Of a stretch of 64,000 nucleotides of DNA, positions 26,731-32,506 are shown in pieces. Every line of letters begins with the position of its first letter. Position 1 is the stretch's first letter. Source of the stretch: a virus; IMG/VR virus record IMGVR_UViG_3300017752_002245, positions 1 to 64,000 of that record; one strand, written 5' to 3'. The notes below the pieces were generated by a model. That model saw only the letters and a program-made list of their open reading frames with translations, was not told the DNA's origin and did not search any database. Made by a program: the position numbers and the translations under genes.

Positions 26731-26738
26731 TATAAATA
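26731..26738 (+). promoter_or_regulatory. T4-type late promoter of the curli-like operon
   Basis: Exact TATAAATA ending six bases before the ATG at 26744. With the usual late start site, transcription begins at the A of the ATG, so the first gene would be leaderless. It heads the operon to 32506 or 32999. Confidence 0.72.
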
Positions 26739-26743
26739 AAGGC

Positions 26744-27025
26744 ATGGATGAGATGGTAATACTAGTCTCCGAATTGGGTTTTCCAGTTGCTGCTGCATGT
26801 TTGGGTGGGTTCTTCATGTTCCTAACATTAAAATACATAATGAATGGTGTTATTGATAAGGTAAATTTTATCAGTAATATGGTCTCTGGTCTCGATAATC
26901 GGGTAAAAAATATGAATCACGATATGATTCGTATGGATACAACCATGTGTGTAGTATTAGGAATCAAACCAGACTTGAATAGAATTAGTAGAGCGGATGG
27001 ACAGAAAGATGCACGGAGGGATTAA
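26744..27025 (+). CDS. Small membrane protein 1 of the curli-like operon
   Basis: A 93-residue protein with one N-terminal membrane helix and a cytoplasmic or periplasmic coiled coil. ELGFPVAAACLG at the start, and GLDNRVKNMNHDMIRMD later, are paralleled in the next gene (DFGFPIVAALGM, GLIDRVRMLDNDIIRLQ), so the two are paralogues. They resemble YvrJ-type or holin-like small proteins in layout only. Confidence 0.62.
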   Translation: MDEMVILVSELGFPVAAACLGGFFMFLTLKYIMNGVIDKVNFISNMVSGLDNRVKNMNHDMIRMDTTMCVVLGIKPDLNRISRADGQKDARRD

Positions 27026-27036
27026 TTGTTGAAACA

Positions 27037-27285
27037 ATGGATGTAGTTACAGCAATAAAAGATTTCGGCTTTCCGATAGTTGCCGCATTGGGGATGCTTT
27101 ACGTCATCTATTTTGTGTGGAAGACTATAACACAACAAGTAGAATCCAAGTTAGATGATGCACATATAGTCATTATTGGTCTTATTGACCGAGTGAGAAT
27201 GTTAGATAATGATATCATTCGATTGCAACAGAAATTAGATACTGCAATAGAAATGGGGAGAAAAGAAAAAGAAGATGAAGAATAA
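27037..27285 (+). CDS. Small membrane protein 2 of the curli-like operon
   Basis: An 82-residue paralogue of the preceding protein, with one membrane helix (about 8-29) and a charged coiled coil. Overlaps the CsgF-like gene by 11 bases. The pair could form a helper complex for the secretion genes or a holin (both inference). Confidence 0.62.
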   Translation: MDVVTAIKDFGFPIVAALGMLYVIYFVWKTITQQVESKLDDAHIVIIGLIDRVRMLDNDIIRLQQKLDTAIEMGRKEKEDEE

Positions 27286-27757
27286 TTTTAGTTTAGTAGA
27301 AAAAATAGAATCAGCATGTTTGTTAATTGCTTTTGGTCTTATGTTGTTTGTTGTAGTTGAAGTACAAGCTGCACCCAAAGAACACAAATTTAAATCACCA
27401 TCATTTAGTGGAATAAATCAATCGTCACATTATTTGACAATTGAGAACCAAGAGACTTCAAGAAAAGAAGCTATAAAACAGGAGATTAAAGACCTCAAAG
27501 AACAGATGGAGAGGGACGCAGAAAATACAACCCTCGCAAAATTTATTAGGAATGTCGAAAGCAGAATCTACTCGACATTATCAAGACAAATAGTAGATGG
27601 TATGTTCGGAGAGAATCCTAGTGATACAGGTTCTTTTAATATCGAAGGTACTGGGATATCATACGTCAGAGACGGTGATTCAGTAATATTAACAATAACA
27701 GATGAGAACGGTAATGTCACGACTATTACTATTCCCCTTGGTGATTTTGGTATCTAG
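27275..27757 (+). CDS. csgF: CsgF-like curli assembly protein
   Basis: A 160-residue protein with a hydrophobic N-terminal signal (about 14-32, ending VQAAP). FKSPSFSGINQSS, an internal helix SRIYSTLSRQIVDGMFG, and the C-terminal DSVILTITDENGNVTTITIPL follow the CsgF pattern. In bacteria CsgF docks in the CsgG channel and couples fibre nucleation to the cell surface. The next gene, CsgG, overlaps it by 56 bases. Confidence 0.82.
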   Translation: MKNNFSLVEKIESACLLIAFGLMLFVVVEVQAAPKEHKFKSPSFSGINQSSHYLTIENQETSRKEAIKQEIKDLKEQMERDAENTTLAKFIRNVESRIYSTLSRQIVDGMFGENPSDTGSFNIEGTGISYVRDGDSVILTITDENGNVTTITIPLGDFGI

Positions 27758-28511
27758 TTGTTCAACTTTAGGGGATAAAATAGAATTCCCCACCGAAGAA
27801 CAACCAAAGGTTCAGGAAACATTACTTCAATCTGAATTAAGGAATGTTTCGAAACCAACAAGGAAACCAACTGTAGCTGTATATCAGTTTACAGACCAAA
27901 CGGGACAAAAAAGACAGAACAGTAGTGGTGGAACAAGTTTTAGTTCTGCTGTTACACAAGCACCTTCAGTGTATCTAATTAGAGCATTGAAACGTGCTAG
28001 TAAGGGAAATTTCTTCAGGGTGGTTGACCGTCAAATTATTGACCATGTGACGAGAGAACGTCAATTAATACGACAAACTCGTCAATCATATGAAGGAAAT
28101 GACTCTCAGAAGTTGCCAGCGCTTACTTTTGCTGGCATGATTATTGCTGGGGGTATAGTAGGATACGATTCTTCTATTGACACAGGAGGTAGTGGTGCCA
28201 GAACATTAGGCATTGGTGGTTCTCGTGAATTTAGTGTAGACACCGTTACGGTGAATATTAGATTGGTTTCGGTTGCTACGGGTGAAGTTTTACTTGATGT
28301 TATAACAAGTAAGACAATACTATCTACAGCGTACAGTGGAGATGTATTTAAATTTATAGAACAGGGTACTCAACTTATAGAAATAGAAAGTGGAGTTACT
28401 CAAAACGAAAGTGTATCAATTGCTACTCAACGGGCAATTGAGCAAGGAGTCCTAGAACTTATTTTGAGGGGGTCTCAAAAAGGTTTCTGGACATTAACTG
28501 GAGAAAAATAA
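27702..28511 (+). CDS. csgG: CsgG-like outer-membrane secretion lipoprotein
   Basis: A 269-residue protein with a lipoprotein signal (LVSS-C20) and the CsgG core: TVAVYQFTDQTGQ, SVYLIRALKRA, FFRVVDRQ, ERQLIRQTRQ, LPALTFAGMIIAGGIVGYDS and RNxxxVDTVTVNIRLV-like strands. CsgG forms a ring-shaped pore in the outer membrane that exports curli subunits. Start ATG 27702, or 27714 with a shorter signal. A phage copy implies a Gram-negative host and export of a partner protein, probably the next gene product. Confidence 0.88.
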   Translation: MRTVMSRLLLFPLVILVSSCSTLGDKIEFPTEEQPKVQETLLQSELRNVSKPTRKPTVAVYQFTDQTGQKRQNSSGGTSFSSAVTQAPSVYLIRALKRASKGNFFRVVDRQIIDHVTRERQLIRQTRQSYEGNDSQKLPALTFAGMIIAGGIVGYDSSIDTGGSGARTLGIGGSREFSVDTVTVNIRLVSVATGEVLLDVITSKTILSTAYSGDVFKFIEQGTQLIEIESGVTQNESVSIATQRAIEQGVLELILRGSQKGFWTLTGEK

Positions 28512-29239
28512 TGAACGTTAAGGCAAAATCATTTTATGCTGTGATGTTCGTAATTGGTGCTGCATATGCTTATGCAGACAATGAAGTCTATATAGACCAA
28601 GTAGGAAATGGTGGAGATATAGAAATTATACAAGACGGTAGTGGAAATAAACTAGGTGGTGGTCTATCAGATACCAGTAAATTCCTCCTCGATGGGGCGG
28701 ACATGGATTTCAAGGTCAATTTGACTGGTGGAAGTAATAACCTAATAGGTTCTATTATTGGTACTAGTACAGTTGATATTGATGTCAGTGGTTCTTCGAA
28801 CGATTTACTTTTTGATATTGATAAAGACAACTCATTTGGTGCTGAAAATGGTGATTACGTAATTGATATAACTGGTGGTAATAATGACCTAGACTTTGAC
28901 TTTGGTTCTTTAGATACTGCTAATGACCTAGACTTTGATTTCGTATTAGACGGTGATTTTAACACCGCTGATGTGAATATTGATGCAACAGGGGTCGTAT
29001 TCAATATGGACGTAGTTTCAGACAACTCAAACTTGTTATATAATGCAAGTGGTTATGATGGACATAACTTTGTTCTGACTGGAACAGGTAACTATTGGGA
29101 CATTGAAGTTCACCAAGAGTCTACTTTACAGGCAGATTCATTGGAGATAGAATATGAAGGTTCTGGTACAAGCACGACAGACGCAACTATTTGTATTAGT
29201 CAGTCTGATGATGGGACTAACACTAACTGCGGAGGCTAA
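28511..29239 (+). CDS. Secreted acidic curlin-like protein
   Basis: A 242-residue protein with a cleavable signal (about 1-22, ending AYA). The start of the mature part, VYIDQVGNGGDIEIIQDGSG, resembles a curlin repeat. Further Asn/Asp/Gly-rich repeats follow (NLTGGSNN, DVSGSSND, DITGGNND, VSDNSN). A beta-solenoid or amyloid fold is likely. It is more acidic than CsgA. As it directly follows CsgG, it is the likely export substrate (inference). Confidence 0.7.
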   Translation: MNVKAKSFYAVMFVIGAAYAYADNEVYIDQVGNGGDIEIIQDGSGNKLGGGLSDTSKFLLDGADMDFKVNLTGGSNNLIGSIIGTSTVDIDVSGSSNDLLFDIDKDNSFGAENGDYVIDITGGNNDLDFDFGSLDTANDLDFDFVLDGDFNTADVNIDATGVVFNMDVVSDNSNLLYNASGYDGHNFVLTGTGNYWDIEVHQESTLQADSLEIEYEGSGTSTTDATICISQSDDGTNTNCGG

Positions 29240-30275
29240 TGATACTGACGTAGGTGCAGTAGACAAGGCAGTTGGTTGGAGACAAATACTTAGAGACACA
29301 ACTAAGATTGAACCCGCTATGGGTCAAGATGTAATCTCGAAGGATGACCTTCGCACAGGTGAAGGTCGCCTTCAGGTTCGTTTTTTAGATGATTCGAAAT
29401 TAAGAATGACAGAACATACACGTATCGTAATTGATAACGTGGTATTTGACGATGACCCAAGTAAGTCTGACTTGGCGATGACGTTTGCCCAAGGAACTGC
29501 TAGATTCATATCTGGTGGTTTGGGTAAGGTTGACAAAGAAAATATCAGACTCAAAACCCCTACCGCATCAATCGGTATCAGGGGTACAGATTTTACGGTA
29601 ACCGTTGACGAATTCGGGAAAACGCTCGTGGTACTTTTGCCAGACGTAAACGGTATTTCATCTGGTGAGATTATTGTTTCAACAATGACAGGTGAGGTTG
29701 TACTCAACAAACCGTTCGAGTCCACAACAACAACAGTTGCAGAAACCGCTCCATCTGCACCCGCAATCCTAGACTTAACTCTGGATATGTTAAACAATAT
29801 CATGATTATCAATCCCCCCAAAGAAGTACAGACACAAGAAGAGTTCATGTCAAGTGTCACTGCATCTAAAAACATCAATCCATTAGACATAGACTTCCTT
29901 GACGAAGATTTATTGCAAGATGAGTTTGAAGAAGATTTGTTGGAATTTACAGAACTTGATATCAATTATCTAGACGTTGACCTACTCGAAGACATGTTAG
30001 ATACTTTTGATAGTCTAGGAGAAGATATCCTACAAGAAAAACAAAGTACAGGTGAGTTAAATCTACAGGGAACAGAAGAAGGATTTGATACAGTCACACA
30101 GGTCGCAACAGTCATAGAAGGAGACAAAGTAACCTTTAACAGAACAGTAAACGATACCGCAGTAGTAACTGTAGACAAAAATGCACTGACCAATTTATTA
30201 ATAGAACAAGACGGAAAAGAACTTGACCCGATTCGTGTAAACGGTGTCGAAACAGAAATCATAATAAAACAATGA
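29154..30275 (+). CDS. Secreted FecR-domain protein
   Basis: A 373-residue protein with a signal sequence (about 10-28). The FecR-type domain runs from about 50 to 165: LRTGEGRLQVRFLDDSKLRM, then a TASIGIRGTDFTV segment. The C-terminal half is acidic with ILDLTLDMLNN and repeated DLLxD units. ATG 29154 has GGAGATAG upstream, so the 86-base overlap with the curlin-like gene seems real. FecR-domain proteins next to CHASE2 cyclases are known from bacteria. Confidence 0.78.
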   Translation: MKVLVQARQTQLFVLVSLMMGLTLTAEANDTDVGAVDKAVGWRQILRDTTKIEPAMGQDVISKDDLRTGEGRLQVRFLDDSKLRMTEHTRIVIDNVVFDDDPSKSDLAMTFAQGTARFISGGLGKVDKENIRLKTPTASIGIRGTDFTVTVDEFGKTLVVLLPDVNGISSGEIIVSTMTGEVVLNKPFESTTTTVAETAPSAPAILDLTLDMLNNIMIINPPKEVQTQEEFMSSVTASKNINPLDIDFLDEDLLQDEFEEDLLEFTELDINYLDVDLLEDMLDTFDSLGEDILQEKQSTGELNLQGTEEGFDTVTQVATVIEGDKVTFNRTVNDTAVVTVDKNALTNLLIEQDGKELDPIRVNGVETEIIIKQ

Positions 30276-30685
30276 AGTACTGGATACCATTACTTGCATT
30301 TATACTGTTTACCGTTCCTTCGTGGGGACTAGACCTAACACTACCCGAACCCGAAGAACCCTATGATTACGAAGAGATAGAAATACCAGAAGTTTATATA
30401 TTTAATTTTGGTGACTATAACGAACCCCCGACTAGAACACAACTGACTATATTCTGGACTCTCAATGCATTAGATGTGTGGACAACACATAGAGCATTAA
30501 AAGATTGTCCTAATTGTAGAGAGATGAATCCATTGCTACCAGACAGACCAAAACTTGAAGACCTCTTATTACAGAAAGCAATCGTAGGTGGCATAATACA
30601 TTGGCAATCAAGTAGTGACTATATGACGGGTATAAATATAGGTTTAACATACGCAGTCGTAAACAACTATAAAATAGTGTACTAG
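30272..30685 (+). CDS. Exported DUF5658-like membrane protein
   Basis: A 137-residue protein with a signal sequence (1-19, ending SWG), an acidic linker with EPEEPYDYEEIEIPE, then NALDVWTTHRALK and REMNPLLP, which match the DUF5658 helix pattern. Four-base overlap with the FecR gene and directly followed by the cyclase. Role unknown. Confidence 0.65.
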   Translation: MKYWIPLLAFILFTVPSWGLDLTLPEPEEPYDYEEIEIPEVYIFNFGDYNEPPTRTQLTIFWTLNALDVWTTHRALKDCPNCREMNPLLPDRPKLEDLLLQKAIVGGIIHWQSSSDYMTGINIGLTYAVVNNYKIVY

Positions 30686-32506
30686 ATGAAAACATGGCAT
30701 GTATTTGTCACCCTTATTGTCATGGTGACATTAAGATTATTAGACCCCTTCTTATTAGAGAGTGCAAGACTCTCATTCTTTGATTCTATGCAGAGGACAC
30801 AGGATGTGTCTATATCAGAACAAATTGTACTGGTAGATATAGATGAGAAGACTCTAGATAAGTTCGGACAGTATCCCATTCCCCGTAAAGTAATGGCAGA
30901 TGAGATTGATAAGATTGATGGTAGTATTATTGCATTCAATATCTTGTTTTCAGAAGAAGACAGAATGGGTGGAGATGAATACTTTGCAGACATCTTATCA
31001 TGGAAACAAGCAATTGTTGCAATCGCACCATCCAACAGAACCAACACAGACTATCGTCCACCTCGTATAGGTACTGCGACATTTGGTGATAGGGACGCAG
31101 AAGACTTTAGACCAGAACTGCCAGGCATGTTGTTTGCACAACCAATCATCCACGACAATGCATTTGGTTATGGTACAATATCATCTGCACAGGATGTTGA
31201 TGGTATTGTCAGAAGACAACCCCTATTAGAGAACTTCGATAATAGACTGTATCCCGCATTCGCATTAGACGTACTTAGAGTTGCGGCAGGGGATTCATCT
31301 TATCAGATATCCACGGATGACTATGGTATTCAGTTTGTTCGTATTCCCAAGTTCAAACCAATCACTACAGATGTAAACGGTAACGTTACAATCGCATACT
31401 GGAATGAGTTTAAAAGATATTCATTTACAGAACTAGACCAAATACCCGAAGGTTCAATTATTATTGTAGGTGCAACTTTTGAAGGTTCTAATGTGGTATC
31501 TACACCAATGGGTGCAATGTACCCCCATGATATTCAAGCAAATCTAATCAAGACAATGATTGATGGTGTAGTTTTAAAACGACAGTCTGAATTCATGTTA
31601 TATGAAATTATTGTAAGTGTCATACTAAGTGTCATACTTATTGCATTCATAACACTTGCACCAATATCTGTATCTGGTATGACGTTTGGTGTCATACTCA
31701 TGGGAATATACTATTTTGTAACTGATACATTCTCAACATATTTCTATATGGTTGACCCAGTATTTCCTATATTAACCATGGTGGTCATATTTGCACATGG
31801 TTCGTTTGTTCAGTTCTATACACAGTTCAAAGCTAAACAGATGATTAAGGGACAGTTTGGTACATACCTATCACCCGACATGGTGGACATGTTGGCAAAA
31901 GACCCCAGTCTTATGAAGTTGGGTGGTGAGAGAAAAGAGATGACGTTCCTATTCATGGACATATGTGGATTCACCCCCATAAGCGAGCATTATAAAAACA
32001 AGGATGATGCAGAGGGTTTGGTCACACTTATTAATAACTACTTAAATGAGATGACTAATATTATCCTAAATAACGGTGGAACAATCGACAAGTATATGGG
32101 CGATTGTATTATGGCATTCTGGAACGCACCCTTACCGTGCGACAATCACGCAGAGATGGCAGTTAAATCTGCAATAGAGATAGAAGAAAAGACTAATGAA
32201 CTTAGACAAAAATATCAAGAACAAGGTCTCCCGCCTATTAATGTTGGAACTGGTATTAACACTGGTACTTGTATTGTTGGTAATATGGGTAGTGAATCGA
32301 GATTTGATTATTCAGTCATTGGAGACTCCGTCAACCTTGCCGCAAGACTTGAAGCAACCGCAGCAAGAGGAGACTACCTTGAATACAAGACCATCTACTC
32401 TAGTTTTACAATGGAAAAACTCACCACTATTAATTCGAGACCAATAGGTCAGATTAAAGTGAAGGGTAAGGAGGAGATGATTGATATCTACACAATGGAC
32501 AGATAA
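30686..32506 (+). CDS. CHASE2-domain class III adenylate cyclase
   Basis: A 606-residue membrane protein. An N-terminal membrane helix (about 5-24), an extracytoplasmic CHASE2 sensor (about 30-300), three membrane helices (about 305-385) and a cyclase domain (about 408-606). Metal aspartates D425 (FMDICGF) and D473 (DKYMGD), base-specifying K469/D547 and transition-state N550 and R554 are all present, so it should be active and make cAMP. The sensor would face the periplasm, as do the FecR and curli proteins of the operon. Confidence 0.88.
   Translation: MKTWHVFVTLIVMVTLRLLDPFLLESARLSFFDSMQRTQDVSISEQIVLVDIDEKTLDKFGQYPIPRKVMADEIDKIDGSIIAFNILFSEEDRMGGDEYFADILSWKQAIVAIAPSNRTNTDYRPPRIGTATFGDRDAEDFRPELPGMLFAQPIIHDNAFGYGTISSAQDVDGIVRRQPLLENFDNRLYPAFALDVLRVAAGDSSYQISTDDYGIQFVRIPKFKPITTDVNGNVTIAYWNEFKRYSFTELDQIPEGSIIIVGATFEGSNVVSTPMGAMYPHDIQANLIKTMIDGVVLKRQSEFMLYEIIVSVILSVILIAFITLAPISVSGMTFGVILMGIYYFVTDTFSTYFYMVDPVFPILTMVVIFAHGSFVQFYTQFKAKQMIKGQFGTYLSPDMVDMLAKDPSLMKLGGERKEMTFLFMDICGFTPISEHYKNKDDAEGLVTLINNYLNEMTNIILNNGGTIDKYMGDCIMAFWNAPLPCDNHAEMAVKSAIEIEEKTNELRQKYQEQGLPPINVGTGINTGTCIVGNMGSESRFDYSVIGDSVNLAARLEATAARGDYLEYKTIYSSFTMEKLTTINSRPIGQIKVKGKEEMIDIYTMDR

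Follow-up and report, generated by a model that had tools for sequence, protein, structure and literature searches.

Genes related to the curli apparatus have been described in phages before, as a CsgF/CsgG cluster (PMC7029224), as a cluster in the OM43 phage Melnitz that was discussed with a lysis hypothesis (PMC9004378), and as a set comprising CsgF, CsgG, curlins, FecR, a cyclase, and small "histidine kinase" genes in podovirus and myovirus pelagiphages (PMC9599517). The module is already known, and the papers of 2020–2022 call it a phage type VIII secretion (curli) module. The published modules have been called a mystery, and the papers disagree on whether there is a substrate, on whether CsgF still binds CsgG, and on the purpose of the whole. 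Here we analyze such a module in a window of 64,000 nucleotides, which comes from the 103,166-base record of a marine virus.

The closest known systems include the pelagimyophage curli clusters (PMC7029224, PMC9599517) and the operon of phage HTVC008M (NC_020484). In the latter, gp011–gp019 encode two small ORFs, CsgF, CsgG, a curlin, FecR, an extra ORF, and a cyclase in the identical order, with CsgG and the cyclase 41% and 44% identical to their counterparts in the window. It differs in that a curlin-repeat/PA14 protein occupies the slot of the DUF5658-like protein of the window, and in that the operon lies at another place in the genome. Melnitz (MZ577097; PMC9004378) also has the identical gene order, but it carries a second curlin protein, and its cyclase lacks residues matching D541 and N550. 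A sequence-only reading of the window had regarded the whole set with sensor and cyclase as unusual, which is not supported, since HTVC008M and Melnitz both bear it and FecR and the cyclase are described in PMC9599517. The type VIII region of podovirus-type pelagiphages (PMC9599517) likewise has CsgF, CsgG, curlin, FecR, and sometimes the cyclase, with small ORFs ahead; in these relatives, however, the module is embedded in the lysis cassette, often without the cyclase, and the small ORFs have no kinase domain. With csgBAC/csgDEFG of E. coli the phage module shares the CsgG and CsgF homologues, the lipobox, and the CsgF peptide, whereas no CsgE was found and FecR, the cyclase, and the small membrane proteins S1 and S2 are added in the phage.

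Organization of the Module

The ORF calls between positions 26731 and 32506 give a late promoter followed by eight plus-strand genes that overlap or nearly touch (Table 1). Pfam scores are above the curated cutoffs for CsgF (1.9e-16), CsgG (6.3e-47), FecR (1.3e-11), CHASE2 (1.3e-37), and Guanylate_cyc (8.1e-20). Together, these results bear out the gene set, order, and overlap given in the sequence-only reading, including CsgF and CsgG, for which it had proposed a profile search. The DUF5658-like protein of the window falls short of the Pfam label, which a homologue (L060) passes at 8.7e-6; the gene was not detected in most near relatives. Module order is nearly constant across the IMG/VR loci, so that the conservation to be checked in relatives is seen in viral loci as well as in HTVC008M and Melnitz, and in further scans the module turned up on contigs as long as 337 kb. 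Genes for replication and recombination in the contig, along with some of its structural genes, have matches in Pelagibacter phage HTVC008M, mostly at 25–60% identity; this is therefore a T4-like phage akin to the pelagimyophages, and its own host is one that we infer.

Table 1. Coordinates of the module features within the window
Feature	Position	Strand	Basis or remark
Late promoter TATAAATA, T4-type	26731..26738	+	13 bp 5' of S1; sequence and position kept in relatives
S1, 93 aa, one TM segment, coiled-coil-like tail, phrog_18771	26744..27025	+	Ahead of the module in nearly all relatives
S2, 82-aa S1 paralogue, phrog_18771, weak holin match phrog_4898 (E 0.0019)	27037..27285	+	
CsgF homologue with CsgG-binding peptide at mature N-terminus	27275..27757	+	Pfam and E. 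coli alignment
CsgG outer-membrane pore lipoprotein, lipobox LVSSC at Cys20	27702..28511	+	Pfam and E. coli alignment
Cur1, curlin-like secreted substrate	28511..29239	+	Pfam matches of homologues, profile search, predicted model
FecR-domain protein, secreted	29154..30275	+	Pfam; model like FecR/PupR-type domains
Curlin half-repeat GVETEIIIKQ, end of FecR protein	30243..30272	+	Signature common to homologues
DUF5658-like protein	30272..30685	+	Slot of second curlin-repeat protein in HTVC008M and Melnitz
Second TATAAATA, possible internal late promoter	30631..30638	+	About 50 bp 5' of cyclase start; sequence match
CHASE2-adenylate cyclase, three predicted TM segments	30686..32506	+	Pfam and catalytic residues

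The Predicted Export Pore

The mature N-terminus of CsgF, HxFxxPSFSGxxxxxHxL, is the best-conserved stretch of the protein among relatives, in which F39, P42, F44, H52, and L54 are invariant. In the alignment with E. coli CsgF, this peptide matches the residues that insert into CsgG; their position inside the barrel is taken from the established structures. Alignment with E. coli CsgG shows that the lipobox cysteine is retained as well. An earlier article proposed that phage CsgF has diverged and may have stopped pairing with CsgG (PMC9004378); the preservation of precisely the N-terminal peptide argues against such a loss, and we do not favor it. Judged as a type VIII secretion system, the locus has both a CsgG lipoprotein pore and a CsgF with a CsgG-binding N-terminal peptide, and these matches support the view that the phage may build an export pore of its own.

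In E. coli, CsgE caps the pore on its periplasmic side. We found no match to it (PF10627) in five phage records or in the Hyphomonas genome described below. Phage modules have likewise been reported without CsgE (PMC9599517), and its absence is noted to lower curli formation but not to abolish it (PMC7029224). The presence of CsgE is thus no strict requirement for type VIII (curli) secretion.

The Proposed Curlin-like Substrate and the FecR Tail

Cur1 is very acidic, with a pI of about 4.05. Its earlier designation as curlin-like holds better for the family than for the window protein, which scores 14.3 bits (E 0.041) against a Pfam curlin cutoff of 20.7, whereas 14 of the 18 homologues match Curlin_rpt at E ≤ 0.1, the best at 6.8e-8. 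The Cur1 profile also matches a solved curlin-repeat protein at 1e-4. Structure prediction, for which the alignments contained no HTVC008M or Melnitz rows, gives a repeated strand–turn–strand model with a mean pLDDT of 80.6, in which the invariant G-x-x-N residues fall in the turns between paired strands, as in curlin. A fold search of this model against solved structures returned nothing below 0.001. Homology and the predicted model support the proposal that the phage pore has a substrate of its own.

The FecR domain starts near residue 64, after a short signal-like helix at the N-terminus, and a fold search likens its model to the anti-sigma FecR/PupR-type domains (E 3e-5). Neither a cytoplasmic anti-sigma part with a TM anchor ahead of this domain nor any other domain was found in the protein. 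At its end, the protein has the signature G-x-x-[N/T/S]-x-I-x-I-x-Q, followed by at most four residues. The signature, which was spotted by eye in one alignment and counted afterward in sets that overlap in part, occurs in 54/56 FecR homologues of a first set (both exceptions are truncated by contig ends), in 45/47 of a second (one exception is a broken frame), and in 47/47 of a further set, which includes all 38 homologues that have a spanin directly after FecR and no recognized cyclase. It was found in 0/320 of the other ORFs of at least 200 aa in the second set, and all its matches in the first set fell in FecR, in Cur1, or in the gene that separates FecR from the cyclase. Among 41 distinct FecR tails, the glycine is in place in 39, and the asparagine position is occupied by N, S, T, or D in 35 (by N in 9).

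The curlin kernel is N-x-Y-x-Y-x-Q (PMC10192328), and the FecR tail corresponds to one half of it; the same article connects CsgF with the final CsgB repeat. The terminus of E. coli CsgB, AIRVTQR, resembles the FecR tail. When profiles of the whole FecR family and of Cur1 were compared, no match emerged. The occurrence of a curlin half-repeat at the end of essentially every complete homologue, with or without a cyclase, suggests that the FecR protein docks on the fiber or the pore via this tail.

Probable Late Expression and the Lysis Cassette

The promoter sequence TATAAATA occurs 11 times on the plus strand of the window and 0 times on the minus strand. It lies within −200 to +60 of the first gene in 40/57 distinct relatives, against 0.05 expected, and its offset is mostly −13 to −28. 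The module genes are presumably co-transcribed. In the T4-like records no PF00959 lysozyme was found, and the module is not beside a recognizable lysozyme there; the late link therefore rests on the promoter in these phages, and the link to lysis on the podovirus-type relatives.

In those relatives, the module is placed between small membrane proteins and Rz–Rz1–lysozyme. A scan from the o-spanin of locus L218 gave 60 loci with enough upstream sequence; going upstream from Rz, the recognized gene was FecR at 37 loci, the cyclase at 13, and S2 at 5, and the other 5 had none. In a handful of those with FecR or S2 (L330, L369, L370), up to 4 kb of unrecognized sequence intervenes, where a distant cyclase or further genes may lie unseen. 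L218 itself reads small membrane protein, S1, S2, Rz, Rz1, and lysozyme, then terminase and portal, with no curli genes. It is one of four S2 cases (with L326, L327, and L345; three of them nearly identical) that are clean cassettes without the module, and these represent either losses or forerunners of it. Late expression, as claimed in the sequence-only reading, is supported by both the promoter and this position, which also lends some support to the role at release that it had listed among several.

S1 and S2, of about 85–96 aa, belong to one unnamed phage family; their description as paralogues is confirmed by matches of both to phrog_18771 (7e-29 and 3e-25). The label of histidine kinase given to them in PMC9599517 is not borne out, as there is no kinase or phosphoacceptor Pfam match and no conserved His, the best His column reaching 61% in S1 and 44% in S2. 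Their holin matches (phrog_4898/YvrJ-like) are weak, at E 0.0007 to 0.0035 at best. In some relatives S1 and S2 are beside lysis genes, and they are absent from most cassettes that have the same upstream protein. S2 has module genes for neighbors at 73/80 of its loci (15 in opposite orientation), and 68/79 further loci found via the small upstream membrane protein, a holin candidate, have neither S1/S2 nor the module. By these counts, S1 and S2 are part of the module and not of lysis cassettes in general; a role as general holin was considered, but it is the module that they track.

The Cyclase

The last gene of the operon encodes a CHASE2 domain and a class III adenylate cyclase domain with the catalytic residues D425, K469, D473, D541, N550, and R554. 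Between FecR and the spanins, the cyclase is missing in 37/50 podovirus-type modules that keep FecR, so it is dispensable there and an optional component of the module. No class III cyclase was found in 149 Pelagibacter genomes (0/149), and no cNMP-binding domain in 131/149 of them or in nine phage records searched, counts to be read with the reservation that the genomes may be incomplete and that other kinds of receptor would escape a domain search. In the 18 Pelagibacter genomes with a cNMP-binding domain, it is CRP-like in one and otherwise mostly within an 870-aa protein, one of which resembles, by eye, a cNMP–acyltransferase fusion. The notion of a periplasmic signal to cAMP is accordingly weakened, both by the 37/50 modules without a cyclase and because no usual cAMP receptor was found in the phages or in most of the Pelagibacter genomes searched, while the cyclase itself is as had been described.

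Proposed Function

The explanation we consider best, with a confidence somewhat above even, is that of a phage type VIII (curli) module that exports an anchored curlin-like fiber at the time of lysis. Its homologies, gene order, late promoter, CsgF peptide, FecR tail, and lysis-cassette position in podovirus-type relatives come from sequence; export, fiber formation, docking, and benefit are what we infer. Cur1, FecR, and, where present, the second curlin would cross the inner membrane by Sec, and CsgG with the CsgF constriction peptide would form the outer-membrane channel through which Cur1 may exit, folding into an acidic solenoid of the curlin type. The terminal half-repeat of FecR may then dock on the CsgF–CsgG pore or on the fiber, in the way proposed for CsgF and the final CsgB repeat, so that the docked protein could anchor, nucleate, or read the state of export. 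S1 and S2 would be phage-specific inner-membrane helpers of the module, and the CHASE2-cyclase an optional reader that might convert the state of FecR or the periplasm into cAMP. The dying cell and the debris it leaves would probably gain a fiber-coated, sticky, or otherwise altered surface, which could benefit the phage by retaining its next hosts or keeping out rivals. Counting against this model, no clumping was seen in Melnitz-infected cultures (PMC9004378), the window's Cur1 scores below the curlin cutoff and its model matches no solved structure significantly, CsgE was not found, and in the T4-like phages no recognizable lysozyme adjoins the module.

A second explanation, which we consider rather unlikely, is that CsgG is an outer-membrane hole that helps to time or complete lysis together with S1 and S2, the curlin-like proteins being plugs or leftovers; the proposal in PMC9004378 is a blunter form of this. 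The placement of the module between small membrane proteins and Rz–Rz1–lysozyme, with FecR (37/60) or the cyclase (13/60) next upstream, the same cassette without the module in four loci, and the weak holin matches of S1/S2 are all in its favor. However, the CsgF peptide, the curlin-like substrates, and the FecR tail, which a bare hole would not need, are all kept, and the cassettes already own spanins, lysozyme, and a holin candidate. The 68/79 loci that have neither S1/S2 nor the module further imply that the module is not required for lysis.

It is improbable, in our judgment, that the module serves in signaling, with FecR and CHASE2 sensing the periplasm and cAMP reprogramming the host or delaying lysis. 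The intact catalytic residues would fit such a role, as would the adjacency of FecR to a CHASE2-type cyclase on bacterial chromosomes too (L171, L178) and the targeting of a FecR-domain protein by the Sinorhizobium cAMP-dependent regulator Clr (PMC5498481), but the frequent absence of the cyclase from podovirus-type modules and the results with the Pelagibacter genomes and phage records oppose it. Finally, we give very little credence to the suggestion of PMC7029224 and PMC9599517 that CsgG is a pore by which the infected cell takes up larger nutrients; the missing CsgE cap would agree with it, but the late promoter and the retention of substrates, CsgF peptide, and FecR tail would not.

Returning to the fiber-export model, a wider generalization can be offered tentatively, at less than even confidence: that phages use curli modules as devices at the time of lysis, with FecR, capped with a curlin half-repeat like that of CsgB, built in as anchor or gauge of the exported fiber, S1 and S2 as dedicated inner-membrane partners, and the cyclase, where present, producing a messenger without a known receptor in the usual host lineage. 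New here are the signs of use near cell burst and a FecR protein, the supposed "sensor", that appears built to dock on fiber or pore. In the part of the literature on phage curli modules that was searched, we found no report of the FecR tail, of the lack of a conserved His in S1/S2 and their tie to the module, or of the absence of a class III cyclase from the Pelagibacter genomes and of a cNMP-binding domain from most of them. We believe the lysis-cassette position to be unreported in the same literature; the words spanin, holin, lysozyme, and endolysin are all absent from the text of PMC9599517. With the FecR tail, the CsgF peptide, the position in the lysis cassette, and the missing cAMP receptor, the earlier puzzle becomes a set of questions open to testing in a laboratory strain or in infections with cultured HTVC008M or Melnitz. 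Should fibers form at lysis, the infection of bacteria that are very abundant in the ocean may alter the stickiness of cells and debris.

A Related Bacterial Locus

Hyphomonas sp. TMED17 carries CsgF, CsgG, curlin, FecR, and a CHASE2 cyclase in the identical order (L084), on a 705-kb contig that is chromosomal. It differs from the phage modules in having no S1/S2 and in a FecR without the final Q. Among 299 genomes of its order, it alone has a full-length FecR of the module type. In trees with long branches, its CsgG is nested among the phage sequences (97/93) and its cyclase stands next to that of phage L219 (86/94). This placement speaks against the locus as a simple bacterial donor, and because of it the transfer could have run either way. 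An exchange between phage and bacterium is likely, judging from these trees.

Distribution of the Module

Phage-type curli modules are also present at nine loci (L083, L085, L086, L087, L088, L091, L095, L098 and L134) in metagenome-assembled genomes (MAGs) that carry the names Sphingobacteriales, Saprospirales, Rhodobacteraceae, Pelagibacter and Pirellulales. Most of these loci contain S1/S2, the paired small one-TM proteins that open the module, and the loci are probably phage contigs that were binned with bacteria. Very large virus contigs bear module genes as well, either S1/S2 and the cyclase or the whole set, and in some of them S1/S2 lie on the opposite strand. The 1,499 bases of OR851715.1 (match H7), deposited under the name Salmonella phage, also include a csgG-like gene and are possibly host DNA.

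Variation in the Cyclase and Its Neighbors

Cyclases of the type found in the Methylophilales phage Melnitz differ from the window cyclase in the substrate and transition-state residues, and RFDYSVIGDSVNLAAR of the window cyclase becomes RHSYDVLGDSVSTAAR, or near it, in these proteins. At L042, FecR and the cyclase are shared out among several frames, a split that reflects broken genes or sequencing errors.

Selected features of the window and compared loci
Locus	Position or size	Feature
Window	32481-32999	Gene 3' of cyclase; PHROG match named DNA endonuclease V, 1.4e-9
L081	8826-10874	Melnitz-type cyclase, RHSYDVLGDSVSTAAR or near it
L087		Melnitz-type cyclase, RHSYDVLGDSVSTAAR or near it
L098		Melnitz-type cyclase, RHSYDVLGDSVSTAAR or near it
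L042	5413-8369	FecR and cyclase
L255	337 kb	Contig with module genes
L259	289 kb	Contig with module genes
L234	278 kb	Contig with module genes
L241	236 kb	Contig with module genes

The PHROG name of the gene following the window cyclase may be a misnomer, because the Pelagibacter phage HTVC008M has numerous 2OG-Fe(II) oxygenase genes; the gene also shows a very weak match to an Asp/Asn hydroxylase family. Finally, some Pelagibacter genomes encode a long protein (L168) that has cNMP-binding domains and a portion resembling an acyltransferase.
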